From contig JAKSZP010009620.1 of NCBI GenBank assembly GCA_022478985.1, positions 1 to 64,000 on the forward strand: a stretch of DNA of 64,000 nucleotides, in the 5' to 3' direction. Shown piece after piece: positions 1 to 58,656 of this stretch (its first letter is position 1; the number at the start of each line of letters is the position of its first letter). The translations under genes and the position numbers were made by a program. This DNA is from Massospora cicadina (lineage: Eukaryota > Entomophthoromycota > Entomophthoromycetes > Entomophthorales > Entomophthoraceae). The notes under the pieces are model-generated. The model searched no databases. It was not told where the DNA came from and saw only the letters and a program-made list of their open reading frames with translations.

Positions 1-1
1 A

Positions 2-616
2 GATCCCACCCCCAATACCCACACTTACTTCAGCAGGACTATTGTGGGAATTAGCAAAATCTGTGCTGAGATTACCAATTTGAAATCGGTTGGATCTAAT
101 TTGGCTGGCAATCTGGCTGATGCCCAAAATTTGAATGACTGTAAAAGCATGAAGAATGAGTTATCAGCTGGATTGCCTGATGGTTCCAATTCAATCTCCA
201 GACTAGTTGAACAAATATTGGGCACTATCAAAAAGGGCTCAAAGTCCTCAAATAGTAATTTGGGCGTTGCATCCAATGTGCTGCTGTTGACTGAACAAAT
301 GGTTAAATGACCGAGTGTGGGCAAGTTGGCCATCCTGAACTCGTTCCTAACCAAATGGACCTGTCCCTATAAGGGATGGCCTTGGGGGATTCCCATCGCC
401 CATTGGGCCAAACGCCATCATGCTAATTGTCAGAGACATAGTCAAGCCCTGGTTTGGACGTTTGAGGTTAAACTGACAGAGACTTGGCCCGCCACCAAAA
501 TTTGTGATGTCAGTTCCCAAATAATAAACCCCCCATTCCCAAACAATGCGCCAGTTAGGCCGAATTTGTTGGGTCACAATCCCAACCCTGTCACTACCCA
601 ATTGACCACTATTTAA
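2..616 (+). pseudogene. LTR-borne ORFa (U3 segment) in LTR A
   Basis: An open frame runs from base 2 to 616 with one internal stop (TGA at 308-310). It aligns along its length with ORFa of LTR B: both have K/R-x-ICAEI, L-x-G-[LM]-PDG, then a GWPWGIP-x-AH block followed by C/R-HHAN and FEVKL-x-x-TWP. The terminal stop overlaps the TATA-like box at 609-618. No domain is recognised. It is mainly hydrophilic, with no signal peptide or membrane segment visible. Protein-level matching between copies that differ in DNA suggests it once coded, but function is unknown. The N-terminal D-L-x-H motif seen in the other LTRs would lie left of the window. Confidence 0.55.
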
Positions 617-655
617 TCAGTTGCATGGCACTGAGAAAATTGTTGGTCAATTTTA
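609..655 (+). promoter_or_regulatory. TATA-like box and downstream conserved block of LTR A
   Basis: CTATTTAATC lies at 609-618, followed about 25 bases later by TTGTTGGTCAATTTT (about 639-653). The pair occurs at the same place in LTR B and, slightly altered, in L. It is inferred to be the LTR core promoter and initiation region. The ORFa stop codon lies inside the TATA-like box. Confidence 0.45.
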
Positions 656-1325
656 TTACTTTCCTTTCCTAATAGAATTTTTGCCAAAAAATCAAATTTT
701 CTTTATTTCCCATTCTGACCGCATCCCAGATGGCTTTTCCCTGGTGGTCTGTCACCCCGCGCTCCGGGTGGGCTTTACCAATTCTCTTGGTCACCATGGC
801 TCCCTCTATCACCGATTGGGCCCAGCGAGTCTATCACTTTTGGTCTTACAACCCCGCTCTTATGAATTTCTGACAACGATATATGGGAATCTTATAGCCC
901 TATGTACAACAATGTATAGAGAGAATCCATCTCCCTGTCACCCCAATGAGTTAGCCCCTCAAGCCAAGAATCTCATTGAGACTGTCCCATTACTCCCACC
1001 TCCTGCAGTTAGAACCAGTGAACTGGGAATGGGTTCAGTGTGGTTTGCCGTTGGGACACTCCTTACCCTGTTGTTACACCACCACCTCATGGTATCACAT
1101 TTCCCAGCTCCATATCAAGTTGTACAGTTGGCAATGCCTCTGGCATTCTGGCTTGCTTTTTGGGTGTTCACACATCCCGACTGGCAGGCTAGTCTAAAAT
1201 TCTTCTGCCGTTTCCATGACAAAGAGCAGCAAAGTTCAATCAAGTGTAATAAAGATGACCATTCTTCTTATTCCTTGCCCTCCTTATTGGCATTATCCTC
1301 TCAGTTTGGAAGCACCATTACCTGA
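621..1325 (+). pseudogene. LTR-borne ORFb (downstream of promoter) running into F gag
   Basis: This is a 234-codon open frame. The last part inside the LTR (about 1027-1221) contains a hydrophobic W-F-A-V-G segment, a second segment around P-L-A-F-W and the C-terminal block HPDWQASL followed by a C-R-F-H-D ending. The same ending recurs in LTRs B, J, K, L and P. The upstream half of this copy is probably frameshifted: another frame reads a TPxxxNW-like motif shared with K and L (MAPSITDW here). The frame does not stop at the LTR end (1221); it continues 34 codons into F. A short two-pass membrane protein is the best structural guess; its role is unknown. Confidence 0.5.
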
Positions 1326-1350
1326 ATTAATTTCCAGTAAATCAAATCAA

Positions 1351-2033
1351 TGACAAGGCTATCATAGATACTAGATCCCCGGTGAATGTTGTCTCCTCCA
1401 AATTGGTCAAACGGATCAAATTAAACCCCAATATTTCTCATTATGAAGAATGTGGCACCGCCAGCCCTCAGAGTACTCGGTCTATTGGAGCTTTTTCATC
1501 ACTTCCTCTGAAAATTGGGAAATTAACCTTTACCATTCCAGCAATTGTGCTCAATAATTTGAGTTATGGCCTACTCTTGGGAACTCAATTTTCACGAGAA
1601 TTTGATGGAATTATCAACTACCCTGACTCATCATTGTCTCTCTTGGGGTATCGAGTTCCCTTACTTTTATCTGATCATGCTTCCACTCAACGTCAGTTAT
1701 GTCTGCTAGAAGGAACTAAAAGGTCTTATTCACTTCAGTATCAGGTTGAAAATCCTCATGTAAAATTACCTCCTACCATTGCTGATATTGAAGAGGGAAT
1801 GTCTATTTTTCTCCTGAGAAATTAGTTATTCCACTAAAATCACAAGTGATCATTAATACTTCTTTGCACTTTTTGATTCCCAAGGGGCATTCGATACAAG
1901 TCCAGGGCACTGTAAATCCTTCTGCCAAAGAACTCTTGCCTTGTCCTGGAATATTGGATTATGCTTATTCAGACTCTTTATATGTCTTACTAGCGAACCA
2001 TACTGATGTGCCAAAACCAGTAGATTGAGAGCA
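1351..2033 (+). pseudogene. F protease domain
   Basis: An IIDTRSPVNVVSSKLV motif begins near 1361. It is the aspartic protease signature (usual D-T-G-A) with G changed to R and A to S. Then comes the Gypsy-type FSSLPLKIGK...LLLGTQF stretch. Loss of one T near 1808 relative to G shifts the frame; ORF 1382-1825 stops there and the next frame carries the remainder to about 2026, where a TGA is shared with G. The protein would cleave the Gag-Pol polyprotein. The altered active-site triad and frameshift argue it is dead. Confidence 0.75.
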
Positions 2034-2099
2034 CCTGATTGCTTAGGTCAAGCTGTTACCCTTATCTCGTATCTATGATGTTAAGCCCTTTGGGAGTTT

Positions 2100-2960
2100 A
2101 CAAGACTTTGGATTGGAGAGTGATCAGGAAATCCTTACTGTGGGACCTGCTATCGGTAAACATCTCTCTAAAAAACAGGAGAAACAAGTGCTTTAATTTT
2201 TGGATGAGTATTCCGACATTTTTGCTAGGCATACTTACGATTTTGGGAAGATGAAAGGTGTAGTGCATACTGTTGAAACTGGTGAACACCTTCCTATCCG
2301 TGCGAAGCCATATCATAAATCCTAAGTAGAAGAAGCCCTGGTTACTAAGGAGTTGAATCAATTGCTGGAGGCTGGATTATTGAAACCCTCCAATAGTCCC
2401 TGGGCATCCCCATTGTTGTTGGTTAAGAAGAAAGATGGTTCTCATCGAGTTCTGATAGATTAAAATCGATTAAATGCTATTACCCAATGGGACTGTTATC
2501 CCTTACCTAGGATTGATGATTCTCTTAGTTTGTTGGCTGGATCCACCTATTTATCAGCCATGGACTTAGCCAGTGGATATTGGCAAATCGAACTGTCTCC
2601 AGAAGATCGTGCCAAATGTGCCCTGATATCAAGTAAAGGGTTGTTTGAACCAACTTGCATGCCTCAAGGCCTAAGCAATGCCCCCACAACTTTCCAAAGG
2701 GCCATGGACAGTATGCTCCGGGATTTAAAGCTTAATTGTGTTCTGGTATATCTTGACAACATTACCATGTTTTCCAAAACCTTTACTGAGCATTTAAACT
2801 ATCTAAAAGAAGTATTCAGCTGAGTTTGTGTTTTTCCTTAATACTCAAGCCCTCCAAGTGCTCATTCTTTTAAAATGAAATGGACTTCTTAGGAAATCAG
2901 GTTTCAGCCAAAAGGTATTTGACCCCTTGCAGACAAAGTTCAAGCCATCCAACAGATGCC
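2100..2960 (+). pseudogene. F reverse transcriptase domain
   Basis: RT landmarks are in order: SPWASPLLLVKKKDG (about 2395), SAMDLASGYWQ (about 2557), CMPQGLSNAPTTFQ (about 2656) and V-Y-L-D-N at 2746-2760. The catalytic Y-x-D-D is therefore changed to Y-L-D-N; twin G keeps Y-L-D-D. In-frame stops include TAA after YHKS (shared with G) and TAA in the VLID box (F only). A stop and frameshift near 2821 precede the RNase H part. It would copy the element RNA into DNA in the virus-like particle. Confidence 0.8.
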
Positions 2961-3553
2961 TCCTCCCTCTTCTTTACAGGATATTAAAGTCTTTCTTAGT
3001 ATAGTTGGGTATTATTGTCAATTTAATCCCAACTTTGCTGATATGGCTGAACCCTTAATTTATCTATTGCAAAAAGGAGTGTCTTTCGAGTGGGGATTAG
3101 CTCAAGAACAGTCTTTCAATTCTCTGCATACCGCCTTGATGAAGGCACCTGTTCTAATTCACCCCCAGTTTGATAAGCCTTTCTTTCTACATATGGATGC
3201 AAGCAATGTCACCATTGGGGCTATTTTATCTCAGTGTGATGAAGAAAATAAGGATCATTTTGTTGCTTACTATAGCAAAGCTTTGTCAAAGGCTGAACGA
3301 AATTATAGTGTTACTGAGCAGGAATGTTTGGCGGTAATTTTGGCCATCAAGTATTTTTGGCCCTTTTTATATGGTACCCATTTCACCGTTATTACCGACC
3401 ATTCCTCCTTATGATGGCTGCAGAATATGGAGGATCCTGATGGGAGGTTGGCCCATTGGGCTTTATGATTGCAAAATTACTATTTTTCCATTGTTCATCG
3501 CTCAGGAGCTCAGCATCAATTTGCAGATGGTTTATCCCGACTACCTATTCTGA
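2956..3553 (+). pseudogene. F RT connection and RNase H domain
   Basis: It starts with MPPPSSLQDIKVFL and GYYCQFNPNFA, then LHMDASN (RNase H first Asp) and YYSKALSKAERNYSVTEQE with CLAVI, the standard Ty3/Gypsy RNase H core. A TGA interrupts the frame at about 3412, where G has CAA. The following text continues as a typical tether (RSGAQHQFADGLSRLP). Role: degradation of RNA in the RNA-DNA hybrid. Confidence 0.8.
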
Positions 3554-3559
3554 CCTTGG

Positions 3560-4760
3560 AACCAGAAAAAGAAGAACGCTTGTATAATCTTATTGGATGA
3601 CTGGAATTATGGGATTGAGAGATTGAAGAGGATTGAGCCTATCTAAAATCAATTACCAAGGATACTATGATTCAAGATGGAACTTTGTATAAGAAAGTCA
3701 AGTCTAAGTGGTTACCCTTCCTACATCCCAACTCCAGGTTTCACGCTGTAATGGAAGGTCATGAACAAGTCAGTCATAGCGGATTAAATAAAACTCAAGA
3801 ATGGTTGAAGACTCAATACTATTGGAACAACATGACAGAGTTTATTTGGGAGACTCTTGACTCATGTCTTACTTGCAAACGTCATGGAACTGCCAACCCT
3901 TCTTATCAACATCAAGTCATTACCCCAACTAAGGCGTTTGAAGTAGTCAGCATTGATGTTGTAGGGCCTTTTCCTCGAGGAGTGCATGGTCATCAGTATA
4001 TCATTATGGCCGTTGACCATTTGACCAAATGGGGTGAGGCCATTTCAATTGCTACCCCTTCAGCTAAGACTACAGCCTTTTTCCTAAATCAGCATATTAT
4101 TTCCCAACATGGATGACCAAAGGTCCTTATGTCAGATAATGAAACTAATTTCACCTCGCAGCTTATACAGGAGTTATCAAAATTATTTAACAATACTCAG
4201 AGATTTGTTGTCCCATATAATCCATCCACAAATGGGGCCATTGAACGAGTTAATGGAACCTTGGTCTTGCTTTTAAGGAAATTGGCCTCGACTGATCCAA
4301 CTCAGTGGAATTTTTATTTACCTAGTGCCTTGTTTGCTTATCAGATAAGCTATCACCGCATTATCAAGATGTCCCCATTTAAGTGTATATATGGGCGGTA
4401 TCCTTCAGTATCCTTCTAGTGTTTAGACTATCCTTGAAGAAAGCATCCCAGAAAATTCTGATTTAGTTATGAGAAATTTGGCTGATGAGATTATCCGCCT
4501 CCAGGCTCAAGCAATGAATTCAATTGAAATCACCACTTGAAGAGAGACTCTACAAAGCAATCAACATAAACCAGTCTTACCTGAATATCAGATTGGAGAT
4601 TATGTTATGTATTATTTTTCTTGGCCAGGCAGATGGACTGAAAAACTGGGATCTAATTTGTCTAGTCCTTATAGAGTTATATTTCTAAAGAATTAGAATA
4701 TTTGATTGTTCATACTGATACTGGTATTGTGGTAAATCATATTCATCCTAGGTTTTTAAG
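3560..4760 (+). pseudogene. F integrase domain (D,D-35-E present, interrupted by stops)
   Basis: Frame 3667-4116 has a zinc-binding H-H-C-C region (HEQVSHSG ... CLTCKRHG) and the first catalytic Asp in SIDVVGPF. Frame 4129-4419 has the second Asp in MSDNETNF and the Glu in NGAIERVNG; exactly 35 residues separate them, the usual D-35-E spacing. A single TGA (4114-4116) after SQHG splits the domain, and three TGA codons lie just upstream (about 3597-3640); all four are shared with G. A GPY/F-like region follows at about 4590-4690, with no clear chromodomain. It would join element cDNA to the chromosome. Confidence 0.85.
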
Positions 4761-4788
4761 AAGTCATCCTCCACCGCAATCAAATCTT

Positions 4789-4799
4789 GAGGAGGGAAG
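4789..4799 (+). other. F polypurine tract
   Basis: GAGGAGGGAAG lies immediately before the 3' LTR that starts TGTTGGGATT at 4800. G has GAGGGGGAAG in the same position before TGTCAGG. It is the expected primer for plus-strand DNA. Confidence 0.8.
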
Positions 4800-5131
4800 T
4801 GTTGGGATTTCACCAAATTTGCATATCTCTGAAAAATCCCCTTCCTCAATTCCCCTGACATCATCAGAAGGAGCAAGCAATCTATCAAATTTGATGTTCA
4901 ATTGGATCCTGATCAACTGATTGAAGATTTGATCACGCAGAGATTAATTCATTCTGATAGATTACAAACTGTAAAAAAGCCTATAAATATTTCCTCTTTT
5001 CGAAAATAAAAATTAGGTCAAGTTTAACCTGTATTTTCTTATTTACTTCAATGCATTTTTGGAGAATCCGCCCAGTGTAAATTTGAGATATAACCTGCCC
5101 CATTGGGAGTGTAATTTAAAACTTCAAGAGC
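4800..5131 (+). repeat. F 3' LTR (short, about 332 bp)
   Basis: It begins TGTTGGGATTTCACC after the polypurine tract and has a TATA-like TATAAATA near 4983. It aligns with G's 338-bp 3' LTR to its end (CTTCAAGAGC here, CTTCCAGACA in G). This LTR type is short and unrelated to the long ORF-bearing LTRs. The exact right end is placed by homology to G. Confidence 0.75.
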
Positions 5132-18720: not shown

Positions 18721-18730
18721 TGTAAGTCCC

Positions 18731-19540
18731 ATGGAACGTCCTCTTGGTGTCAATTGGGCCATTTTCCCATATCCAAGCAAGAAGGCACCGAAGAGGATGG
18801 CTGTACCCCTCATTACTCAGGGCGATCTCACTCACATGGTAGATGAGCGCTGGGTAACAGCTCTCCCACTTTGGATACCACTCCCGGTACCCACACTCTC
18901 TTCAGTAGAACTGTTATGGGGGATCAGAGAAATCTGCGCTGAGATCGCCAAAATGAATTTGATCATAACCAATTTGAGAGGCAATCAGCCCAATGCTCAT
19001 ATTTTAAATGTTCAAAGAGTTATGAAGACTGATTTATTGGCTGGAATGCCTGATGGTTGCAATTTGGTTAACATGATGATTGGAAAAATCTCCCTCCTCC
19101 CAAATACATCAGGCATCACCCTCAATGGGCAGGTAATAGCACTGGACATCATCAATGAGATTTTGAAGCTTCCTATTGACAAATCAGGTGTTGCACCTGA
19201 CGACATGCTACAGACCAAATGAATGGTCCAGCGACTGAGCACGGGCGGGTTGGGCGTCCCAAACCCATTCCCAACCAAATGGGCCCACCCCTATGCGGGG
19301 TGGCCTTGGGGGATTCCTGCCGCTCATCGGGCTAAATGCCATCATGCCAACCATCAGAAACATAGCTGGGCCTTAGTTTGGATGTTTGAGGTCAAACTGT
19401 CAGTGACTTGGCCCAATGCCAAATTTTTTGATGTCAGTTCCCAGGGAACTAACCTGCCCATTTCTGAATAATTTGCTGGTTAGGTCAAATTTGTGGGACC
19501 TGATCCCGGCTTGTTTTCCCCCAAATTCACTACTATTTAA
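18731..19540 (+). pseudogene. LTR-borne ORFa in LTR B, best-preserved copy
   Basis: An ATG 10 bases after the LTR start opens a 163-codon frame (18731-19222, stop TGA), and the same frame continues 19223-19471 and on to a stop at about 19540 inside the TATA-like box. The N-terminal block has SPMERPL, then QGDLTHMVDERWVTALP. The middle has REICAEIAKMN and GMPDGCN; the end has PYAGWPWGIPAAH, KCHHAN, FEVKLSVTWP. LTRs A, J, K and L share these blocks, and E and R the D-L-x-H ... RWV part. The domain is not recognised and no membrane segment is visible. In a full element it would lie in U3 of the 3' LTR. Two or three stops make this copy inactive. Confidence 0.6.
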
Positions 19541-19580
19541 TTAGTTGCATCACACCAAAAAATTGTTGGTTGATTTTTCT
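19531..19580 (+). promoter_or_regulatory. TATA-like box and conserved block of LTR B
   Basis: CTATTTAATTAG is followed by AAATTGTTGGTTGATTTTT. Same arrangement as in LTR A (609-655). Confidence 0.45.
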
Positions 19581-19675
19581 TCCTTAAATTTTCCATTAAA
19601 AAACCTTCCCCAAATATTTAGTTTTTCATATATGTTGAAAATTAAGCCGCCTTATCCACTGACATTCTTGCACCC

Positions 19676-21490: not shown

Positions 21491-21499
21491 TATTTTCTG

Positions 21500-21937: not shown

Positions 21938-21972
21938 CCAATTCTCAAGACAAATCTCTCTTGTTAGTCGAC

Positions 21973-32279: not shown

Positions 32280-32284
32280 ATGAC

Positions 32285-37140: not shown

Positions 37141-37149
37141 GTGGCTAAG

Positions 37150-39400: not shown

Positions 39401-40536
39401 ATGTTAAAATGGCTCAAAGATACCAAATAATAAACAATAAAAGCATAGGAGCCAAAGGATCACACAAAATTTGTAACATGGAAGTCTAGACCAGGCAAAA
39501 CTTCAATTTGATGCAGTTTAGACTCAAACAATAATAGAATAAAATTCTGCATTAAACTAAAAAGATATATAATGTCTAACAATGTTTAAGACCTCCTTGA
39601 GGAAATCTAAGGTTTTGACAACCCAAAAGTTTATCTGATAAGGGTTAAACAGATTTTTTGTTAAAGAAACTCAACCAGTAAGTGGTACACCAAGAATGTA
39701 TATTTAAAAATTGGGAAGCCCCATATTTAGCTCAAATTAAAACTAAGGCAAAAATAGCCAAGTAATTTAGTTTACCATCTCTTGTGGTGACATATATCAA
39801 GTAGAACAAAACAAGTTTTTATTGCAAAGCAATAAGTTAAGATTTAGGTATATTATATCTGGAATGGAACATAAAACCCATTTTTAATTAAGTGCGCCGT
39901 CCCATTTTTCATAGTAAAGTAACTTGTAGATTTCAAGACCATGGATGAAACGCCTGAAACCCCACCAGGAGACCCTGTGGTACCAACATGTGCATAAATG
40001 TTTCTTACCCAACGTTTTTCTAAGGTATATTTTTTGATCAGGGAGGGAGGCTAACTTGATAGCCTTGGCCTTAGTAATCTCCTCCTTGTTTTTACGGTTT
40101 TTTCTTATAATAATGTCATGGGACATGATATCCAAACATTTTCTCAGTGTTCCCCACAGCAGAAGACCGCATAACTATCATTTTGGATACACAGAAACTT
40201 GTATAAGAGCATTAATCAAAGGCAATTGAGGACAACATGGTGTTTGCTGACCAGAAGTGGCACCTATGCCATGATATAAAGGTTGCCTCCCTTATCATGT
40301 AAGGTATGTAGAATCTTAGAATGACGGTTTCCACATAGAAACTGGCATTAAACTCTTAGGTCCCTAAGAAGTTAAAATGATATAGGTAATGAAACTTTTT
40401 TATAAAGCTCCCTACGCGCTGGAAGCACCATAAATTGTGCCATACCTCTCAGCTATATCCTTTTAATGAGGAGATGCTAACTCATCCAACCTAATAGTTT
40501 TGGGAACTTGCAGAAGGTGGAAGTATAAGCAATTAT
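39401..40536. other. AT-rich spacer
   Basis: No supported gene. A minus-strand frame at 39884-40135 (83 codons, Lys-rich) matches nothing I recognise. It ends with ATTAT (40532-40536), the target duplication of LTR J. Confidence 0.4.
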
Positions 40537-40540
40537 TGAA

Positions 40541-40732
40541 AATCTGGAGACCCAACCTCTTGGGTTGGACCGGGAAAAGGTCACTTATAGGAAGAAGAAG
40601 GGACCTAATGCCCCAGTAGAGCCAAGGGCTCCACTGGGGCACTTGGGACATTTGGTTGGTGAACGTTGGATAACCACATTGACCCCAAAAATCCCTCCAC
40701 ATAACCCCTTTGGCTGCTTCTTCCCTTGTTAA
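40541..40732 (+). pseudogene. LTR-borne ORFa (N-terminal block) in LTR J
   Basis: There are 63 open codons: NLETQPLGLDREKVTY, then KGPNAPVEPRAPLGHLGHL and VGERWITTLTPK. It aligns residue by residue with K (SPGDQPLQLDREQ ... KGPKAQVDPLSQLSDLVHV, VDERWVTALP). Stops at TAA 40730. Later ORFa text up to the TATA box is not readable in one frame. Confidence 0.55.
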
Positions 40733-41216
40733 AAGCATAAAGGAGGTTTGTATGGAGGTAATAAAGGCCAGAAGTCAACAACAGCACCTCCTCCATTCAC
40801 TAGCCCCCACCCCGCCATCCCTCACTTCCTTGGAAAGTAAGAAAATCGGCCTCAAAACATAGCAAATGGTTCCTGAGTCAGGACCCAGTCTAGAACACGA
40901 AATACAAAATTCCAGATCTTAAAAAGCCACTATGAGTCAAGAAATCCGTTTTTGAAAAATTTAAAAAATCTTTGAAAAATTTGTCTTAATTGACCCTGGT
41001 AAAGTCCAATTCTACTGCCCCTTTGATCCAAGTAAATTTTCTCAAGTTTGGATCAGTGAGGGTCCCTCCTTAGCAGGTCAGATAATTATGTTGCCAGAGT
41101 TTTTATGACCTTTGCATAAGCTGGATGATGACGCCCCAAGTCCAGGCTGAGTACCCATGAGTGCGTCAGCTGCCACTGTCTAGGAAACAAACCCACAGAC
41201 CCCTTTTCCCCATTTT

Positions 41217-41255
41217 TCATATATAAGGAAACTGCCTCTTGAAGGGGCAGTTGTT
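41217..41255 (+). promoter_or_regulatory. TATA box and conserved block of LTR J
   Basis: TCATATATAAGG followed by GGGGCAGTTGTTGGTCCATT. K has the same block (GGGGCAGTTGTCAGTTCGAT), M a close variant. Confidence 0.6.
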
Positions 41256-42059
41256 GGTCCATTTTCACTCTTAGCTTTAATAAAGCTGATCTCTACCCAA
41301 ACAACCACGGACTCCATCTCTTTTTCTAAAATATTTTCGCTTAACTCAGAAAAGTATGCAGCGATCTGGGTTTTAGGGCCAATGGTCATCAAGTGGGCCC
41401 TCCAAGCCCTCAATCTTGTGGTCAACCAGTTGGTGATATCAATGATCAAAGATTTCGCCATGGGCATAGGACGTCAATCCACCAATTCCAAAGAGTTTTT
41501 AGATCAACTGAACTCTTCACATCAATTTGCTCCTCCTTTGGCTCCCAGCAGACAAGCTACAGGTCTGCCTCCCACTTCTCAAAAAAGTTGAAGAATTTGG
41601 ACTAATTCACCCCACCAATCTGCTGATGGTTTGGCACAATTTGGGCAAAATGATACCATCTCCACTAATTGCAATTCTCCATTAAGAGGCTAGAAACAAT
41701 TGTCCTTACAACTGCGAGGTGGTAATAAGCACCAGACTATCTGGGCCATCTCGCCAAGGGCCAATCCAGCCTAAAACAGTTTATAAAATTTATCCGCCAT
41801 CTCAGAAATGTCCCCAATCCCCCAACCCATTGCAAAACACCACAACGGGCACAAGGCAAAATCCAAGGCCTCCCAGTTGTTGAATTGAATTAATTTAATT
41901 GATTTTCAAACCCTCTTAGCATTTCCAAATTTTAAAAAATTTAAATGATTATCAGATTTTCTATTATGATGAAATAATACCAGAATGTTTGGAAGAAGAG
42001 CCCAAAGAGCACTAACTGCAAACCCAGAAGGCTTGGTCATCCTCCTTGCCTCTCCCACC

Positions 42060-42291
42060 CTTAAGAGATGCCCCAAAAGACCCACGGTTGCCCCATTGTA
42101 GCAATTTGGTTTGCTATAGGGCCTTTGGTATGTTCTTTAACTTTTATTTCCCTCACAAGAATCATAGAGGATCCCTATTACAACTGCTCAGAACTTCTTT
42201 GCTATTGGTATTCTGCGCTTTTCACTATTTTTACACACCCAGATTGGAAGACCAGTCTTACTTTAATCTGAAGATTCCATGCCAATTATAG
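42060..42291 (+). pseudogene. LTR-borne ORFb (C-terminal block) in LTR J
   Basis: Frame 42068-42271 contains IWFAIGPLVCSLTF and ALFTIFTHPDWKTSLTLI, aligned with K (IWFALGAFSMLMNL; WVLTQPYWEPSLIL). The two hydrophobic segments resemble two transmembrane helices. It reaches the LTR terminus at 42284. Confidence 0.5.
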
Positions 42292-42564
42292 CCTTTATAA
42301 AATCCCATCATCAGTCCAGTTTTCAATGGCATGGAAGGGAATTATTCTTATGAATACAATTTTGGTAAATGAAAAGATTGTATAAATTACAAGAAGATAT
42401 TGGAAGTCTTTCACGCAAATTCACCTAGAAGCTCTTCATCCCCCTCCGAAGTTTGCAGCCATTATAGCCATCAAACTCCCTTAGAAGCACAAGAATTACG
42501 CCCTGGTCCATGCCTCAGGTGGAGTAATCCTTTCTGTTATATTATTAAATGATAGTAAAAGAGC
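42290..42564. other. Spacer between LTRs J and M
   Basis: No gene seen. The left edge is the target-duplication flank of J. Confidence 0.4.
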
Positions 42565-43700
42565 TGAAATACAGTCCTTCCTCCTGGGACACAACCAACA
42601 ATCTTTCAGGCTTAAAAGGGCTTATAATGCTCCAGTGGCCCCTTGTCATAGTTGAGTGACCTGGCGCATGTAGTTGACGAGCAGTGGATTAATGCTCTGG
42701 CTCCTATGGATCCATCTCTTAGACCACTTTCCCTATTCTTTTTTGTTGAAAATGATGGAAATTTTGTAGGGAGGTAATCCAGTCCAGAGGCCTCTGGTAG
42801 CGCCCTAAGGCTCATCCCACACCCACTCAGTTAAACCAAAATTTCCAGAAAAAGCCAAGATCACCCCATTTACTAAATATCATTTATAGAGTCAATAAAC
42901 CTGGATTAAGTCATTTGAAGTAAAGCGGGCTGCATATTAACTTTCTGAATCTTAAAGACCTTGACTAAGGATACTCTGTTTGTTTGACTATCTGTAATGG
43001 ATTCCTGTAAAACTATCCTTGCTAATGGACCAATCCAAATGTTTTGTGACAAATAGATTCTATAATTTTGATATGTACCCTGATTAGTAGAATCCTTTAT
43101 AAAAATATACATTTTTACCCAAAGCTCTAGAATATTTTAAAATAATTTCTCCTACATTAATCCAACTAATTGTGATGTGCCTTTTTTAGCTTTAGGCCCA
43201 GGATAGTTTTTAGGTTTCCTTCAATTCTCCACTTTCCCAAATATAAAGGTAACAGCCACATCTAGGGACTGTTGTCAGTTCATTTTTATATCTGAACTTT
43301 CCTTGGATAAACTTTTCAGCTTTTTGTGGAGGAGTGGTAGCATAGCAGGGTGGTTCCTGCTCCACTCAAAGTCAAGTTTTGATTGAAACAGAATCCAAAA
43401 ACAGCACAGGATAAAAAACTAGCGTGGTATATTTGTCCCAAGGTTGACCCAACTTGCTTACTTTTTTAAAATTCTTCAGATTTTACTCTGTTTCTGAGGA
43501 GCCGCCAACTGCACCTTTTTAAAAAATCATATTGATCCAGTAAAGCACACCACCGTTTGTGTTTTATACTTGATTATTATTTATTGAGCACTCATTTTCT
43601 TAATCTGACTACTCAGCGTGCCATTACCAAGTTTGTGAGGAGATACACCATTGATAATGAGCACCAATCCACTGCACATGCAGTAAACCCTTAAACCAGT
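42565..43700 (+). repeat. Degenerate K-type LTR 'M' (ends approximate), with SINE-like insert
   Basis: ORFa reads LSDLAHVVDEQWINALAP (42647-42712). The TATA box CAAATATAAAGG (43239-43250) and GGGACTGTTGTCAGTTC follow as in J and K. After the SINE-like insert (43329-43457) a K-like stretch resumes (ATCATATTGATCCAGTAAAGC, compare K at 46173-46196). The start is estimated from the K spacing; the 3' end was not found. Confidence 0.5.
43329..43457 (+). mobile_element. SINE-like repeat, copy 1
   Basis: It contains TAGCATAGCAGG (43338-43349), a perfect fit to the RNA polymerase III A-box consensus, then TTCCTGCTCCACTC and a diverged B-box-like GTTTTGATTG. The tail GCGTGGTATATTTGTCCCAA followed by GGTTGACCCAACTTG matches copy 2 at 55229-55355. 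It is inserted in LTR M. No clear target duplication. Confidence 0.5.
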
Positions 43701-45268: not shown

Positions 45269-45272
45269 TGTA

Positions 45273-46050
45273 AGTCCTGGGGACCAGCCCCTGCAACTGG
45301 ATAGGGAGCAACACCCCTTTCGGACAAAAAGGGGTCCAAAGGCCCAAGTGGATCCCCTGTCGCAGTTGAGTGACTTGGTGCATGTGGTAGATGAGCGCTG
45401 GGTGACTGCCCTTCCCCCTAAAGACAACCAGGTTTCTCCCTTTCCCCCTCCTCAACCCTGATAAGGCTAATAGAGGGGGCTTGCCAGAATATTATGCAAG
45501 CCAGGGGCCATGGGCAGGCCCCTGGGACCACTCACTCACCAGGGAAACATGCCAAAATTTTGAGGAAATAGCTAGTCTTAATGTCAGAGCCTGATCTGCA
45601 AATTCCAGGCTGGAGGAGCCATTCTGGACTGGCTGGGGCCAGAAATCAGATTGGCGCATGATTTGGATTTTGAACCAGGTTGCAAGTGACTTGGACCAGT
45701 TGCCCCTAATCCCTGGGACAGATCCAGGAAGTTTAGATCACGCAAATAGTCAGATCAAGAGTTTGAACCAGGTTGTAAACAACCCAGCACCATGGCCACA
45801 GTCTCTCAGGACAAATATGGGGAATCCAAACTGTGTGAACAGGCTGACTCAAATGGTCAGGGCCTGGATTGGTACCATTGATCTGGTTTGGCCCCAAAAA
45901 TTCAAAAGTCTGCAAAAGTTTTTTTTTAATTTTTGCCAAGATTTTGGACATCCTCCCGCCCTCCTCCCCAACAGCCAACCAAATCCCATCGCCAATCCTC
46001 AATCACCCAATCCCTCAGCATCCTCACTATGCGATTCTCCCCATACTTAA
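45273..46050 (+). pseudogene. LTR-borne ORFa in LTR K
   Basis: The first block, 45273-45461, has SPGDQPLQLDREQ and LSDLVHVVDERWVTALP, ending in a Pro-rich PFPPPQP. The second, 45658-46050 (130 codons, shifted frame), has DSNQIKSLNQ-like Asn/Gln-rich text and a Pro/Asn-rich end whose stop (TAA) lies in the CCATACTTAAGG TATA-position. No domain is recognised. A one-base frame offset separates the two blocks. Confidence 0.5.
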
Positions 46051-46085
46051 GGCAACTTTCCTATCAAGGGGCAGTTGTCAGTTCG
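46041..46085 (+). promoter_or_regulatory. Core promoter region of LTR K
   Basis: CCATACTTAAGG, a degenerate TATA box, then AAGGGGCAGTTGTCAGTTCG, matching J and M. Confidence 0.5.
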
Positions 46086-46159
46086 ATCTAATCTTCCCAC
46101 GCTTTGCGCTAGATAAAACTTGAATACCCCAAACACCTTGCCGCAGCCTCCTCCTGTTT

Positions 46160-46951
46160 ACTTTTTTTGAAATTCCATGATCAATCTGGCAAAGCATGCC
46201 ATTATCCAGAAACTCACCCCAATGTTCGCCAACTGGGTCATCTGGTCACTGGACCCCACCACGTGGCAGTGGATTATATCCACCATAAACAGTCTCTCAC
46301 CCCCAATGATGAAGTCACTTCTCAGTCCACTTTAATAGATCCATCTAACGTGAATCCATCCACTTTCGCGTATCCATCTAATGTGAATCCGTCCATTCAC
46401 TCCATCACTGGGATCTCTAAAAACGCTCCCCTGTTGAAGCTCCAGGGCACCCCTGCTCCAGTGCTTGCAAACTTGGCCCCCAAACCTGGCTCGCCCGCCA
46501 CTGACCCCACCCACCTGAGGAACCTGGAGCACCCCGCCCAAGGGGAGCTCAGCCCTAACTCTCACCGCGGGTCCATTTCCCTCTCCACCCACACCCCTGT
46601 TCACGCGGCAGCCCCTGTGCTGCCCCTTGCTGGTGCACAGACTTACCTGTTCAAAGCCAAAGGCCAGCAACCGCAAACCCTGGAGGAGTCATAATCATCC
46701 CCACCTCTCCCACCCTTGGGGGTTTCCCCACAAGACTCGCGGTTGTCCCCATTGCAACCATCTGGTTTGCCTTGGGGGCCTTCAGTATGTTAATGAACCT
46801 TTACTTTCCTCACATCCCCAATAAATCTCAACTACTTCAATTCACTTGGACTGTTGTGCCTTTGGCATCCTGGGCTCTCCACTGGGTGCTCACACAACCA
46901 TATTGGGAGCCTAGTCTAATTCTTAACAGCCGCATCCATGACAGCCTATGA
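46160..46951 (+). pseudogene. LTR-borne ORFb in LTR K
   Basis: The early part reads HAIIQKLTPMFANWVIWSLD (L has ITPTLVNWIHH, A has MAPSITDWAQR). A low-complexity Pro/Ser/His stretch fills 46167-46694. The last frame, 46691-46951 (86 codons), reads AVVPIATIWFALGAFS, VPLASWALHWVLTQPYW and SLILNSRIHDSL, with two hydrophobic segments. It runs past the LTR end (46943) by two codons before TGA. Frame changes occur between blocks. Probable small membrane protein of unknown role. Confidence 0.5.
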
Positions 46952-48729: not shown

Positions 48730-49979
48730 CAGGGCAGCCAAATGCAATGGCGGGTCATCTGCAAATGCCATGGTGCGTGTGGGGGCTTTACCTGGGACCA
48801 GAATCCCTGTTAGCTTGTCCTGTAAGGAGGCCAAGAGGGGTCAAGGGTGATGTTAAAAAGGATAGGGCTCAGGGGGTCCCCTTGCCAGAGACCTTGTCCA
48901 ACTGGTATTGCCACTGTAAAACCCATTGGCGCCAGGACTCTGGTGTGGAGCTGGTCATAGAGCGCTGATATCCAGCGCCTAGCTGCGGGTGGGAGATGGA
49001 AGCGGGCCAGGGAAGCATCAATATACTTCCAGGCTACCCGATCATATGCTTTCTCCATATCCAGGAGAGCCACAAAGCCATTCACCTTATGAGAGTTAGC
49101 AGTCAAAGTCACGTGAAGGTCATTATAGTTGTCCCATAACGACCTCCCCGGAATAAAACCGTGCTGGGATGGGGAGAGGCGAGGTGACACCCATTTGGTG
49201 ATGCGGTTGGCCAGAAGCTTCGTGAAGAGATTGTGGTCTGTGTTGATCAACGCTATGGGGCGCCAGTTCGCCAGGTTCTCACGGTCTGACTTCTTGTGAA
49301 TGAGGGTCGTGATTGAGCCTCTGAAGTCGGGGAGGACCTCGCCATTCACCAAGAGTGCAGCGAAGAGGTCGCGGAGGGTTCTGGCTATCACTGCAGGTTC
49401 CAGAAGGTACACCTCAAAGGGTATTCCGTCTGGGCCTGGGGCTTTAAGCCGTGGGGATTTCAGAAGGGTTTCCATCACCTCCTGGATGGAAATAGGCGCC
49501 AGTAGAGCCTCATCAGCCCGTGGGTCAATGGGCGGCTCTGGAGCCCGCCACAGGAAGTCTTGGATGTCCGATGGGTCCACCTGGGTGGCATGGAAGAGGC
49601 TGGAGTAGAAGCGGTGTAGTTCCTGCGTGATTTCCTCCTTGTCTGAAGTGGTTGTAGTGCCAATCTTCAGTGCAGTAATATCCTGCGCTGTTGACCGGAC
49701 TTTCTGTTTCTGAAAGAAGAAGCGGGTGGGGCGTTCCCATTGAGCATAGTAACGTGATGTTGTAAAGTTTGCTGCCCGTTCTTCCTTCAGTGTGAGCTCC
49801 AAGCGGAGTGCTTCCTGCGCCGCTTCCCAGTCTTCCAACCATCTGGGAGAGGGCGAAGGCTGGCAGTTTCGCTCTAGATGTCTGATTCTGGCTTCCGCCC
49901 TTTTGACTCTGGCGCGAGCTGCAGTCATCTGGGCTTTGGCACAGTTGTAAGCAACGCGGGTGATGCCCTCCTTGGTCAC
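48730..49979 (-). pseudogene. LINE B ORF2 reverse transcriptase
   Basis: Frame 48810-49979 (389 codons) has KAPGPDGIPFEVYL, LIHKKSDRENLANWRPIAL, GFIPGRSLWDN, VALLDMEKAYDRVAWKY and QGDPLSPILFNITLDP. F-A-D-D, the catalytic site, is encoded at 48755-48766 (GCATTTGCAGATGAC) but in a shifted frame after about 48830. All catalytic residues are thus present at DNA level, broken only by small indels. Confidence 0.88.
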
Positions 49980-50833
49980 CGCCCATCTAGCCTTGTGGTC
50001 AAGCAGGTGGGGTGGGGGGAGGTGAGAGTCTCCCGGATGGTCATAGACAGCTTCTCCTTAGTGGAGGGGTTGTTGAGAAGAGCTGGGGCAACCCTAGGCC
50101 AGAACCTACGCGACGGTTTAAGTGTGGTGGTGAGGACAACGGTGAGTGACCTGTGATCACTCAGATGGTTGTCACGAGAGATGGGAGAGGAGACGCGGCC
50201 AATTATCAGGGGGCCAATCAGTGCCATAATTATGCGTGACGCTGACTGGAAAGCTCCTCCATTATACTGGATCCTAGTCATGCAACCTAGGCCAGACGCG
50301 GAGGGTGGAAGCGAATCTATAAAGCCACTCAGGCGAAGGAAATCCCGGAGGCGACTTGATCCAGGGCATTCCTTTGCTGCAGGGGGGTAAGAGTCACGGG
50401 CGCGACTTATGGTTGTGTTGAAATCTCCTAAGAGAACTGTATTCCGTGGGAGATTGAGTTGGAGGAGCTCTTCCAAGAGCCTATTTTGCTCCTGACCTGC
50501 ATTAGGCAGGTAGATGCTTGCAGCGAAGAAGGAGAAGTCAGGAGTGGTGAGTTTGGCCAGTATGAGGCGGCCACCTAGATATTGTGAAAAAGAATGGGTT
50601 TTAACCTGGGGATTCAAAACAATGAGGGCGGCATGGTTTGTCCAGAAGGAGTTGCCTCCAAACTGTTCATTCCATGCAGATTGTTCGTGGGGGAGGATAT
50701 GGGGCTCCTGGACAGCAGCGATGTCAATTTGTGCTGACCTGAAGTTTCGGAGGAGGCGGGCTCTCCGCTTAAAGTCCCGCAACCCATTTGTGTTGATGGA
50801 TTGCAGGGCCAGGGTGCTGCCATGGGGACTCAT
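49976..50833 (-). pseudogene. LINE B ORF2 endonuclease
   Basis: A 285-codon frame, from MSPHGSTLALQSINTNGLRD (S-I-N-x-N box), IDIAAVQEPHILPHE, FAASIYLPNAGQEQN and VLLGDFNTTISRARD, to a DNHLSDHRSLTVVL box. These are the catalytic N, E, D, N and SDH residues of the apurinic-type endonuclease, all present. One frameshift near 49980 separates it from RT. ATG at 50831-50833 is a plausible ORF2 start, but the gap to ORF1 holds another frame (50871-51377). Confidence 0.88.
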
Positions 50834-51554: not shown

Positions 51555-53552
51555 CTAAGAGGGCTTTCGAGCTGTGCAGCCACTATACAAGTGTCCAAGG
51601 GCGTTACACCATGAACACCGGGGGCGCGCCTGATCAGGGTCGACAAAAAAGATCTCAGGGCATGCCCTAACTACCGCCACACGAGGAATAACCTCAATGT
51701 TGCGGGATACAGTGGGGGAGGGGATGAACGACGCCCTAGCAGTGCGAGCTCTTTTAGTGGGAGCATAGTAAGAGGGGACGCTAAAGTCCACTGAAAGAAC
51801 AGACCCAAACTCCATTAAACCACGATGGAGTGTCAGTTTAAGAGACTCAGGATCAACAGTCGTTGGTAGGCTGGAAAAAATAACCCATGAAATTTTCTCC
51901 AGGTGAGAGCGTGTGCGGGAGATGCGAAGAGATCCGCGTGGAATAATGACCTGGAGGGTGGCAGCATGGTCAGCAAGGGCAGCTTCAGTGAAGCCCACAT
52001 CGATGTAGTGGCCCTCCACTGATTCATGGATGGTGGTGTTAATTGAAAATGTCTCCGCAATTGCTGCAAAGTATGAGAAGTAATCCTCTGTATAGAATTC
52101 AACAGGGTTATGCCCATAATAAAGGCGAATTGCGTGGGAGAGGGTTGGGCGAGGTAGAGCTTTTTGCGCTCTAGTTTCAGCCCATTTCTTCTTAACATCA
52201 GCAATAAACGCCACTTCACGGGGATCAGCTTTGGGTAGCGTTGGTGCCAGAGGTTTTTGCCACGCCCCAGTGGCTCCTTTGGTACGTTTTTGTTTGCTTT
52301 GGGCTGCAATTGCGGGTTGAGTGTGAGCTGGTGGTTTGGACAAATTTGCGGAGTTCCCTTGTTGCTGGAATGTTACAGCAGTTGCTGGCGTCATATTAAA
52401 TTGAGGGGCGGTTTGTTGGGCCTCGCTAAATTGGGGAGGCCCATCCAGATTGGAATTAACTCCAGCCAGTTGGGAGGAGGGAGATGTTTCTTCACCATCC
52501 TAATCTATTTGGGTAAATTCAGCCCGAGTATTTGCTGTGATTTTGTGGGCAAAACTCACTGGATGATTGGTGAATTGGTCGCTTTCACCATATGGAGATA
52601 AAGTGCCAACTTGAGAAGTGCCGATTATGGGGTTTAAATGGGACGGGTGATATTGGAAATGGTGTGAAGTTCCAAAATCTGAACCATTTAAATCCCCATT
52701 GGGAAGAGTAGATTGTCCCAATTTGGTGCTTAGTGAACCAGAATGTGCAGCTAATCCAACCTTACATCCGAGGGTTTGGGGGCCAGGTGATTGTTGAGCC
52801 TCGCTTAATTGGGGAGTCCCATCCAGATTGGAATTAACTCCAGCCAATTGGGAGGAGGGCGATTTTTCTTCACCCTCCTAATCTATTTGGGTAAATTCAG
52901 CCCAAGTATTTGCTGTGATTTCGTGGGCAAAACTCATTGGCTGATTGGTAAATTGGTCGTTTTCAGCATATTGAGATAAAGTGCCAACTTGAGAAATGCC
53001 GATTACGGGGCTTAAATGGGACGGGTGAGATTGGAACTGGTGTGAAGTTCCAAAATCCGAACCATTTGAATCCTCATTGGGAAGAGTAGATTGTCCCAAT
53101 TTGGTGCTTAGTGAACCAGAATGTGCGGCTAATCCAACCTTACATCTGAGGATTTGGGGGCCAGGTAGCTGGGTATCGCCCCTCATGGAGGGAGCCAGAA
53201 ACACGGCGTCAGCAATAATAGATGGGGCTGAATTAGCTGACACAATGGGGGAGGTGAATGCCTGGATGGGCTGAGTTGCATTCAACTGAGCAGACGCCAT
53301 TAAAACAGCGTGAGTGATGGCCTCCTTGGTTGGAGGGGGCCCAGCGGGTTGGTGGGAGGCAGCGCACACAGAGCTGTTAGGCGTGCAGGTTGCAGAAGTG
53401 CGATCAGGTGAACTGGCGCTAGTTGGAGTAGCTCCAGGTTGGGGGTGGTGCCTGCTTTCATGGCTGCTGCTTGAGAGCGAGTGATTCTGGTTGACCCTGA
53501 GGTGGGTACCGAGGGTTGCTTCATTTGGGGGTGGTGCTGGCTCGTTTGGCAT
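51555..53552 (-). pseudogene. LINE B ORF1 with two in-frame TAG codons
   Basis: ATG 53552 opens a frame that stays in register to 51555 (666 codons) except for TAG at 52878-52880 and at 52500-52502. The N-terminal half is Pro/Ser/Asn-rich (NEPAPPPNEATLG). The C-terminal half (279 codons from M at 52394) has the conserved SYFAAIAETFSIN and HYIDVGFTEAALADHAA blocks and a zinc knuckle, C-S-W-C-N-A-L-G-H-L-Y-S-G-C (C-x2-C-x4-H-x4-C). It probably binds element RNA. Both stops end duplicated units. Translation could alternatively start at 52394. Confidence 0.8.
52421..53175 (-). repeat. Tandem 378-bp duplication inside LINE B ORF1
   Basis: Unit 1 is about 52421-52798, unit 2 52799 to about 53175; period 378 bp (126 codons, frame-preserving). 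Both units carry GCKVGLAAHS-type text (CKVGLAAHSGSLSTKLGQS), FGTSH-x-FQ-x-HPSHL and the end FTQID followed by TAG. The units differ by many substitutions, so the duplication predates this insertion. Confidence 0.85.
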
Positions 53553-56290: not shown

Positions 56291-56291
56291 C

Positions 56292-56570
56292 ATGAAGTTG
56301 GCAGCAATTCCCAACTCAACTCAGATTCACTTTTCAGGATCCTTGATCCTTACTCTTTATCCTTCTAAAGAGTCCTCAATTAAAGCACTCAGCAATAACT
56401 GCCTGAAGATGAATAGAACTAAAACCAATAATGAATTCTGCTACTTTGGGTTTTTTGTGTTGAGTTTTTTTTGGTTTTTATTAAGTGAATTATCAGGGAA
56501 ATTTATAGGGGAAATTGGCACCCAACCCTTGATTGGTGCCTCAGCCTTGAATTGCAGCCATTGCTATTGA
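56292..56570 (+). CDS. Unrecognised 92-codon open frame
   Basis: Starts MKLAAIPNSTQIHF and has one strongly hydrophobic stretch, YFGFFVLSFFWFLL (about residues 53-66). There is no promoter or homologue in the window. It may be chance or a decayed element piece; I would not call it a gene without homology. Confidence 0.2.
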   Translation: MKLAAIPNSTQIHFSGSLILTLYPSKESSIKALSNNCLKMNRTKTNNEFCYFGFFVLSFFWFLLSELSGKFIGEIGTQPLIGASALNCSHCY

Positions 56571-56599
56571 ATTATCCTTTGTCATCTCATCAGTGATGA

Positions 56600-57120
56600 T
56601 ATTCCCCATATTGGCTAGAATCCTTCATCAGACTTCCTCAAGACCTATTATGGAAAGAGTCAGAAAATGTGTCCCTAACGGTTTCCACTCAATCTCAAAA
56701 AACCAACTATATTTGGCAAACGACCTGCCTAGGCAATGGGCTTGTTACCCACTATTCAGGTTGTAAACCAACTGATCAATTTGCTAGTTTCATGTAGCAC
56801 CACTCGCTTCACAACTTGTTCCTTAAATTCACAATCAGTTGGTGATGAAACATAACCAATCCCAATTGGTACACCTGATAGTTAATAATCAATCAAATAT
56901 CAGATGCCACATTTCATTGGCAAATCTGCCCAATGAGATCTTAGCATTCACCCATATCAATCCTCAATGGACCTGAACCAGGCGAATTACCTAAAATTCC
57001 CTGAACATTAATAACCCAAAATTTGGGGTCAACCAATATTTAATTTACTTGCTATAGGGAATTTTCCCCTAGCAATCCATGGTAATCTAAATGGCTGGAA
57101 ATGTGGCAAAAGAACCAACA
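56600..57120 (-). repeat. Probable LTR 'N' (minus strand; far end unknown)
   Basis: The minus strand reads AAGAGGGGGGATG, a polypurine tract (57121-57133), followed by TGTTGGTTCTTTTGCC starting at 57120. The arrangement is that of a Gypsy 3' LTR like D's. No partner LTR is seen, and the other end is only a guess. Confidence 0.45.
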
Positions 57121-57175
57121 CATCCCCCCTCTTGCCTAAATTTCCAGTGAGAATAGGATTGGGATAAAAAATATT

Positions 57176-58656
57176 TGAAAGTCTAGGGGAACGTCCTCTT
57201 TACATGGATCAGGCGACTTTCCATTACCAAATAAGAAGGGTCTGAAGAGGAAGGCTGTACCCCTAGTCACCCAGAGCAACATTGCCCATGTGGTAGACGA
57301 GCACTGTGTAACAGCGCTCCCTCTGAAGACTTCTCCCCTAGTCCCTGCACTTGTCTCCGCTGAACTAGTTTGCTGAATTGAGAAATCTGGGTAAAATCAT
57401 TTATAACCATCTTTTCTTAAGCAGGAGGGACTTTATAAAACTGTCAGCGCTGAATTATCAGAATCAAAGCCGGAATGTCTGAAACCAATGGGAATAAAGA
57501 CCAAGGGTTGAAAAACTAATATTCAAAAAGAAACAACTATTGAATTATTAGCTGGAATTGTCAATGACATCAAGTCATTGAGCAGTATAATTGCTGATGC
57601 TAAACTTCCCTCAAAACATCAGGAACAATACCTTATGAGCAGGTATCTCAATCAGGTACAGTCTCCAATAATTTGAAACCCCTATTTCAAGAGTCAGGAA
57701 TTGTGCCTGATGTAACATATTTGGCTGAACGAACGCCCCAGCAACTGGGCACAGGCGGGTTGGCCATCTCAAAACCATTTCCAACCAATTGAGACCACCC
57801 CTATGTGGGGTGGCCAAGGGTTTCCCATTGCTCGTTGGGCCAGATGCCATCACACCAACTGATGCAAATATAGTCGAGCCTCAATCCATACATTTGAGGA
57901 CAAACTAACAGCGACTCAGCCTGCCACTGAATCCTTTGATGTTAGTTCAAATTGAAATTATTTCCCCCTTCCCCCAAAAATTCTCTGGGTTAGGTTGAAT
58001 TTGAGGGCCCTGATCCCTGATTGGACCTACTACCAAATCCATAACTATTTGAATCAGTTGCATCGCACTGAGAAAATTCTTGGTCAATTCTCTTTACTTT
58101 ACTTCCCAATAAACCATCAATACCAAATTTATTTTTACTTTAAATTCTTCTTGCCAAATTCCCAATGGCATTAACTTGGTAGCCCTTCAGTCCCTACACA
58201 GGATGGGATATACCAGTTTTGATGATTACAATCACTCCCACCCTAGTCAACTGGATTCATCATGCAAGAAATTTCTGGGTATTTAATCCCATCATTGAAG
58301 CTATCCGCTATTATGATATTGGAATCAAGTGCCTCATATTTCTCACTTTGAAGCAAAAAACCGCCCCCTTGTCTCTTCTTTGGTGAGGAACTCTTCCACC
58401 GGTGATCCTGAAGTAGTTAACCCAGTAGCGAAATCCCCTGCAGCAAGACCCGCAGGGTCTGGGGTTGTTTCTGTTAGGTTTATTACTGGGTTTCTTTTCA
58501 CACTCATCCTACATCAACGAGCCATTATTACCCAATTTCCAGCTCCATACAACGTCATTCAAGCGGCAATGCCGCTGGCATTCTGGTTTGCTTTTTGGGT
58601 GCTTATGCATCATGACTGACAGGCTGGTTTAAACTTCTTCTGCCGTTTTATTGACA
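57176..58656 (+). repeat. Long LTR 'L' (A/B type)
   Basis: It begins TGAAAGTCTAGGGGAACG (aligned with B's TGTAAGTCCCATGGAACG) and ends TTGACA. Flanks are ATATT (57171-57175) and ATACA (58657-58661), only 3 of 5 identical, so solo status is less certain than for B, J and K. All the ORFa, TATA and ORFb blocks are present. Confidence 0.75.
57185..58050 (+). pseudogene. LTR-borne ORFa in LTR L
   Basis: Frames read LGERPLYMDQATFHYQ, KRKAVPLVTQSNIAHVVDEH (C in place of R-W), CVTALPLKTS, ERTPQQLGTGGLA and HPYVGWP, matching B. At least three frame changes occur. At the place of B's internal TGA (19220) this copy has no stop, so that stop is not universal. Confidence 0.45.

Follow-up and report, generated by a model that had tools for sequence, protein, structure and literature searches.

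Can the long terminal repeats (LTRs) of a retrotransposon code for protein? The question was raised by a 64,000-nucleotide stretch of Massospora cicadina DNA (contig JAKSZP010009620.1, positions 1 to 64,000; referred to below as the window). Here several types of long chromovirus LTR carry two protein-like sequences, ORFa upstream and ORFb downstream of a TATA-like box. A first-pass annotation of the window proposed that these open reading frames (ORFs) encode accessory proteins of the elements. Our analysis confirmed that the LTRs hold two protein-coding sequences under purifying selection: the selection is phase-specific, and the open frames span known domains. The accessory role did not survive. 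The sequences very probably belong to chromodomain Ty3-type elements (chromoviruses) whose gag-pol frame extends beyond the internal region on either side, with ORFb as its start and ORFa as its end.

Coding test of the LTR sequences

Copies for the coding test came from the window and from 240 kb of scaffold C1 (1,107,499 bases), taken as 20 stretches of 10 kb and then four more. Mismatches in DNA alignments were counted per codon position and omega was calculated by the Nei and Gojobori method (NG86), in all three phases. The p values for third-position shares come from pairs without shared branches, picked by judgement with no tree.

Both ORFs had an excess of third-position mismatches and omega well below 1 in the coding phase. 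For the N-terminal part of ORFa the third position had the most mismatches in 28 of 28 pairs among eight copies (share 81/179, p 0.0006); omega was 0.11-0.52 in the coding phase (19 calculable pairs, nine saturated) against 0.54-2.32 in the other two. The middle of ORFa (LTR A, 2-290) gave omega 0.51 against 0.68 and 0.57, with the third position highest in 12 of 12 pairs and with 25 stops in the coding phase as compared with 119 and 214 in the others. E-type ORFa, represented by seven copies, had the third position highest in 20 of 21 pairs (141/320, p 4e-5) and omega of 0.13-0.38 in 14 calculable pairs, six being saturated. The exception was E3/E10, the only recent pair of this set, with omega 1.02, as expected from decay after insertion. 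For the N-part of ORFb pooled omega was 0.18 against 0.55 and 1.46 in the other phases (third position highest in 12/12 pairs; 82/189, p 0.0025), and for its C-part 0.37 against 0.83 and 1.55 (11/12 pairs; 116/234, p 2e-7).

Two blocks from the same LTRs behaved differently. The block from the promoter to the 5′ untranslated region (UTR) gave omega values of 0.70, 0.77 and 1.03 by phase, with no phase-specific excess, and an E-type control block (LTR 440-640, 10 pairs) preferred no phase (46/140, p 0.58). This decides against the conserved blocks being non-coding regulatory DNA with frames open by chance: the third-position excess is specific to the phase of ORFa and ORFb, it is absent from the E control and promoter blocks, and open frames span known domains. 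We rejected that explanation for both ORFs on phase-specific selection and give it next to no probability. It draws on the GWPWG block described below, conserved with no significant codon bias, and on stop counts in the first 160 nt of 12 LTRs. There 13 stops fall in the ORFa frame, 11 of which come from A20a, L and L5, and one reverse frame has 11, a point against coding; the remaining frames have 25-47.

The GWPWG block (window 310-610 and matching U3 blocks of the A, B, L, L020 and L023 copies) had been read by the first-pass annotation as a continuation of ORFa in LTRs A, B and L, and this we could not uphold. Between A and B it is 74% identical over 355 aligned nt with three gap columns, and mismatches fall 29/32/31 by codon position. 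In the ORFa frame omega was 0.45 against 0.68 and 0.64; the third position was highest in 9 of 12 pairs, with a share of 83/214 (p 0.054). The block also lies behind the ORFa stop, whose position is almost constant among A, A20a, B and L023a (in B 166 codons into the LTR). It is conserved DNA whose coding is not supported and whose function is unexplained; for this block the non-coding reading still stands.

ORFa and the end of Pol

The reading of ORFa as the tail of Pol is seen most directly in the full-length element of stretch L020. Its integrase ends in a chromodomain (PF00385, expectation value (E) 1.6e-10), and the chromodomain frame, without meeting a stop, crosses the polypurine tract and enters the 3′ LTR in the phase of ORFa; a frame change follows further inside the LTR. 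The same continuity from Pol to LTR, with one stop, is present in the window at the 3′ end of a K/R-type element (42296-42640, plus strand), where the end of the chromodomain is joined in frame to an LTR in the phase of ORFa (LTR start inferred near 42565), before a frame change. The element in L010 has two frame changes before its 3′ border and is again in the ORFa frame at the border. In L020, the window K/R-type 3′ end and the E elements the chromodomain lies upstream of the polypurine tract.

Genome searches covered 1,469,884,898 bases in 16,968 contigs. Only the best 150 candidates of each search were scored, and the stop-free tallies are our own; as the best copies were ranked by queries that span a border, unbroken frames are favoured and the counts are not rates. 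A 121-residue query for the A/B-type 3′ border, taken from L020 and made up of chromodomain, polypurine tract and 21 LTR residues, gave 52,056 first-look candidates. All 150 best-scored copies (the query's own included) aligned from residue 1-3 to residue 120-121 in one frame; 96 were stop-free, and open frames reached 640 codons. A 70-residue query for the E-type border, from L022, gave 26,209 first-look candidates: again 150 of the 150 best-scored copies, the query's own among them, spanned the border, 138 stop-free, with open frames of up to 574 codons. Among copies in good condition fused border frames are common. In the A, B, K and R types the aligned copies share no conserved start codon for ORFa. 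As read from these sequences, ORFa is the stretch of Pol that follows the chromodomain, continued through the polypurine tract into the 3′ LTR, and its earlier placement at the 3′ end of the transcript agrees with this.

For the E type a different arrangement had to be considered, in which ORFa is a separate short ORF that overlaps the end of Pol, with its AUG lying across the border of polypurine tract and LTR. In copies E2 and E11′ Pol and ORFa are out of phase at the border, which also speaks against the fusion as such, and an ATG is present at the border in E2, E11′ and E3′. In E3′, however, the two are in phase, and the 150 best-scored genomic copies are all fused, though the ranking favours fused copies. 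We regard a separate E-type ORF as improbable.

ORFb and the start of Gag

The start of the RNA was inferred from the TATA-like box, a motif downstream of it and the primer site. In six of six A-group copies (A, A20a, A20b, B8f, L023a and L, two of them from one element) the ATG of ORFb lies 82-98 nt behind the RNA-start motif with no ATG between. The TATA-like box is 30-32 nt upstream of the motif in five of them and was not found at this place in B8f. ORFb had been predicted to lie in the 5′ leader and to be hydrophobic; its ATG is the first behind the inferred RNA start, and the hydropathy peaks given below bear out the rest.

In all six single copies aligned, the N- and C-parts of ORFb are in different frames. 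The 1-nt insertions or deletions (indels) between them differ among copies, A20a and A20b sharing theirs. A 66-residue query from the N-part gave 16,981 candidates, of which the 150 best-scored all cover at least residues 2-63; among these 150, matches on six contigs occur in pairs 5.8-5.9 kb apart. The 5′ LTR of one such pair, C4601, reads unaltered as a single 253-codon frame. It begins at the ATG, takes in the N- and C-parts of ORFb, reaches the LTR end at codon 164 and goes on over the primer site into the start of Gag. An intron or a programmed frameshift between the parts was rejected on the copy-specific indels together with this uninterrupted copy. In the C4601 frame hydropathy (19-residue windows) peaks at 1.4-2.1 at codons 13, 98, 126, 170 and 195; three of the five peaks start inside the LTR.

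The 5′ border was searched with 57 residues of L020 that lie over the LTR end and the primer site. There were 14,650 first-look candidates; each of the 150 best-scored copies crosses the border in one frame, 144 are stop-free and open frames reach 852 codons. The longest, in C3443, is again unaltered: a single frame holding the later two thirds of ORFb (the last piece of the N-part, then the C-part) and running through the LTR end and the Gag region (82% to L020) to a protease (86% to L020; RVP_2 1.2e-06, above cut-off) and a reverse transcriptase (RT; 50% to element E of the window; RVT_1 1.3e-22). The first ATG behind the motif in C3443 begins the sequence MAF; it shares the frame of the 852 codons and lies 48 codons upstream of them. 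Among E-type 5′ LTRs, the ORFb frame continues across the primer site in E1 and E11 and not in E3. By its sequence context, then, ORFb is the start of gag-pol, about 164 codons located in the 5′ LTR and continuing into Gag region, protease and RT.

A gag-pol frame longer than the internal region

Taken together, the sequences show a gag-pol frame that opens inside the 5′ LTR, at an AUG that is the first one after the RNA start as inferred. About 164 residues of ORFb precede the LTR end, after which the frame passes over the primer-binding site and on to the Gag region, protease and RT. On the 3′ side Pol continues past the chromodomain and through the polypurine tract to a stop about 166 codons inside the 3′ LTR (ORFa, A/B type). 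Each LTR therefore contains the two protein ends, separated by the promoter; the start is taken from the 5′ LTR and the end from the 3′ LTR, and solo LTRs retain both ends as fossils.

Several observations have to be set against this layout. At the 5′ end A, A20a and A20b carry another ATG between the TATA-like box and the motif, so that the term 'first AUG' assumes a transcription start behind that ATG. The C4601 frame changes inside Gag after its 253 codons, and in C3443 two stops lie between the ATG and the 852-codon frame. Pfam finds nothing in the Gag region, and Gag is named by position only. ORFb is weakly constrained in B-type LTRs (omega 0.82 for B/B10a and 0.64 for B/L5), and the test of the leader rests on one pair for the A/B copies and is not decisive in the E copies. 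No copy open from the AUG to the ORFa stop came up in our searches, none of which was dedicated to finding one.

Coding sequence in U3 is known from mouse mammary tumour virus (MMTV) sag and lentiviral nef, which are separate genes with their own expression. ORFa and ORFb might likewise be accessory genes: both are in the LTR, neither matched a known family, and in E2 and the units at 36421 and 40125 an A just before the TG of the LTR makes an ATG. Against this, unlike sag and nef, ORFa has no reading frame of its own apart from pol, with a possible exception in the E2 and E11′ copies, which are out of phase with Pol, and it has no conserved start codon in the A, B, K and R types. In real copies ORFa is in frame with Pol, and ORFb with the Gag region, protease and RT. 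This in-frame continuity strongly opposes separate accessory proteins as first proposed, and we consider them very unlikely.

Possible roles of the two ends

The hydrophobic segments of ORFb, which continue past the LTR, would bring the Gag precursor to a membrane as the site of particle assembly. Hydropathy and position suggest such a membrane-bound start of Gag. By position ORFa would be a tail of integrase, which makes binding to, or aiming at, chromatin the natural guess; it may help to hold or aim integrase on chromatin. That both roles are read from hydropathy and position only tells against them. In its fullest form the model would have an N-terminal membrane-spanning Gag domain encoded in the LTR, a polyprotein inserted into the membrane during synthesis and particles assembling there, with one repeat supplying both the membrane start and the chromatin-side tail; we offer it tentatively and think it unlikely as a whole.

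Retroviral and Ty polyproteins are processed, and the ends could also be cut off by the protease. ORFb would then be a free membrane protein, a role that its own hydrophobic segments would allow, and ORFa a free small protein. The coding layout would be unchanged and the function would differ. Cleavage sites in the two ends are hypothetical, and we hold this alternative to be a real possibility that falls short of probable.

Searches against known proteins

The two ORFs had not been recognised from the sequence, and they remained without a name: neither ORFa nor ORFb matched a Pfam family or a PDB sequence. Rfam gave 0 matches, a protein search with a single ORFb sequence gave 0 hits among 660 candidates, and a search for long proteins with the Pol tail gave 0 of 232 candidates at E 10. 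An alignment search with ORFa returned one protein of 2,420 candidates, a 79-residue hypothetical protein of M. cicadina (E 7.1e-4). ORFa contains a basic stretch, a D-L-x-H-x-x-D-x-R-W-V block and a helix. An AlphaFold model built from eight window rows was poor as a whole, with a mean predicted local distance difference test (pLDDT) score of 56 and a predicted template modelling (pTM) score of 0.29; only the helix at residues 61-88 of B was fairly confident (pLDDT 71-87 by block).

LTR units and other features of the window

LTR borders were obtained by self-comparison of the window and a border search. The LTR types are strongly divergent in DNA. The ORFa motif had been reported from LTRs A, B, E (both), R, J, K and L and from degraded M and P. 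We found it in A (later part only), B, L, K, R, both LTRs of E (E1, E2) and two units at 36421 (plus strand) and 40125 (minus strand); J, M and P could not be matched to units. The claim that most LTRs share ORFb stood for A, L, K and R and in degraded form for B; in E ORFb is only weak.

LTR A (1-1221, plus strand as are all features here unless stated) is cut at its 5′ end by the window start, ends in TGACA and is 83.9 and 84.7% identical to the two LTRs of the L020 element. It holds the later part of ORFa (2-307, stop TGA 308-310) and ORFb (730-1221), whose N-part begins at ATG 730, the first ATG after the motif at 640, and whose C-part runs to the LTR end in another frame, with indels; the omega values of 0.18 and 0.37 refer to these parts. 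The solo LTRs B, K and R each have a perfect 5-bp target-site duplication. B (18721-19880, ATATG) carries 166 codons of ORFa (18722-19219, stop TGA 19220-19222) and a degraded ORFb C-part (19679-19867). K (45269-46943, GCCTA) carries ORFa at 45270-45458 and an ORFb C-part that reaches 46943. R (40537-42284, ATTAT) lies within another chromovirus, with ORFa at 40538-40729 and an ORFb C-part at 42101-42280. In LTR L (57176-58656) ORFa (57177-57373) contains a frame change and ORFb extends from ATG 58165 to 58656. LTRs beginning T-GTAAGT were seen at 18721 and 45269 of the window and in L005, L008, L010, L020 (3′ LTR) and L023, inside the Pol-ORFa frame; we take this start to read as a 5′ splice-donor consensus.

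Element E has its 5′ LTR at 21498-22352, 85% identical to the 3′ LTR at 32442-33297, which also contains ORFa. E-type ORFa in the 5′ LTR (21503-21937) has one internal stop, and the primer-binding region (22353-22369) is read in the ORFb frame. The pol region with RT, integrase and chromodomain (23651-26442) is decayed, RVT_1 (1.6e-4) and rve (5.3e-06) both scoring under the Pfam cut-off, and the chromodomain was recognised by similarity. The chromodomain is broken by a nested element; its end and the polypurine tract follow at 32280-32441. The nested element is a second LTR element on the minus strand (26443-32279), with LTRs at 26445-26940 and 31785-32279 that are 88.9% identical. Two further E-type LTR starts were found, each with the 3′ end of the LTR undefined: one with ORFa at 36421-37300 and one with degraded ORFa at 39201-40125 on the minus strand.

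Elsewhere, two Ty3 internal regions (1222-5129 and 59132-63042) lie in inverted relative orientation and are 93.8% identical; the former begins abruptly at the end of LTR A, with no gag, as if LTR A had inserted there. A LINE RT (RVT_1, 5.3e-23) occupies 48810-50057 on the minus strand, and a 378-bp tandem duplication (52413-53166, 93% identical) lies in the apparent ORF1 of the same LINE.

Further copies and abundance

The stretches of scaffold C1 contained a full A-type element in L020 (LTRs 90% identical, internal region 4,470 bp), E elements in L003/L022 and L011/L023, solo copies in L005, L008/L024 and L023, an R-type copy in L025/L004 and a shortened element in L010. Kimura two-parameter distances of LTR pairs were 0.108 for A20, 0.171 for E, 0.073 for E3 and 0.051 for E11 (about 805 bp). 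They agree with Ty3 activity in this fungal family that is described, in the part of the source drawn on, as extensive and not recent (PMC10515909).

The published M. cicadina MCPNR19 assembly comprises 1.489 Gb in 19,694 scaffolds with 41.13% GC, and the sections of that report used here give a genome of about 1.5 Gb of which 92% is transposable elements, 73% of those Ty3 (PMC9584336). As the assembly is nanopore-based, single-base indels may be errors as well as decay. With ORFa of LTR B as query the first look at the genome gave 54,974 candidates. Single border or LTR queries gave between 14,650 and 54,974, so the families look extremely abundant.

Comparison with known elements

The elements have the features of chromoviruses. 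The chromodomain is placed at the integrase C-terminus; protease and RT, both above cut-off, follow one another in one frame in L027, and in window E RT (23651-24124) precedes integrase (25409-26077), both below cut-off. The LTRs have TG...CA ends and short target-site duplications, as in B, K, R and the L005 copy (AAGAG).

Ty1 is a copia-type element, whereas the Massospora elements are Ty3-type with a chromodomain. Ty1 also has integrase before RT, unlike the RT-before-integrase order of E. The parts of PMC5454406 consulted describe a Ty1 RNA that starts in the 5′ LTR, with the GAG AUG after a 53-nt 5′ UTR and GAG codons that overlap the primer-binding site; the AUG is inside the LTR because R and U5 start at 241 of the 334-bp LTR. 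A gag start codon in the 5′ LTR is thus common to Ty1 and, with an inferred RNA start, to the Massospora elements. In Ty1, by the same figures, only about 40 LTR nucleotides belong to GAG, as against about 164 hydrophobic codons here.

At the 3′ end, CRM plant chromoviruses have a gag-pol frame that runs into the 3′ LTR, as in the Massospora elements. Their CR motif is downstream of the polypurine tract, whereas here the chromodomain is upstream and the LTR codes for a further tail. They are also plant elements, for which the portions of the literature consulted report no 5′ LTR coding; the Massospora elements are fungal. Additional ORFs of plant LTR retrotransposons (env-like, antisense) resemble ORFa and ORFb in being conserved extra coding sequence, but in the sections of PMC7264820 used here they are separate ORFs that lie internally, most of them after pol and before the 3′ LTR. 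An env-like protein would be a membrane protein behind pol, and here the hydrophobic part precedes the Gag region.

The sequence behind the Massospora LTR does not start with TGG, which invites comparison with the self-priming Tf1/sushi chromoviruses. The primer-site sequence had its best LTR match at the inferred RNA 5′ end in two of five elements and not in the other three, so a self-priming start of reverse transcription may be taken as a lead only. An inverted repeat, CCAACCAACA...TGTTGGTTG, resembling the primer-site sequence, lies near the inferred RNA start (in L006 near LTR position 460, and in E-type LTRs); its region was the best primer-site match in E11 and B10a only.

In a literature search limited mostly to openly readable papers, we found no report of coding LTRs in Entomophthorales and no element with gag-pol reaching into both LTRs. 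The available part of the text of a survey of fungal LTR elements (PMC3248453) has no mention of Entomophthor or zygomycete. Each end appears to have a precedent, the 5′ end in Ty1 and the 3′ end in plant CRM chromoviruses; their combination in one element was not met with in that search.

Implications

LTRs are usually treated as non-coding in element finding and annotation, and here about 165 codons to either side of the promoter code for protein. Annotation that splits the LTR from the internal region therefore truncates a real protein twice, at its start and at its end, and solo LTRs resemble small genes. The elements also provide a natural example of a Gag whose N-terminal domain is hydrophobic, together with an integrase that has a tail behind its chromodomain. 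If true, a membrane start and a chromatin tail encoded in the LTR would tie the evolution of the promoter to both ends of the protein in very abundant families.

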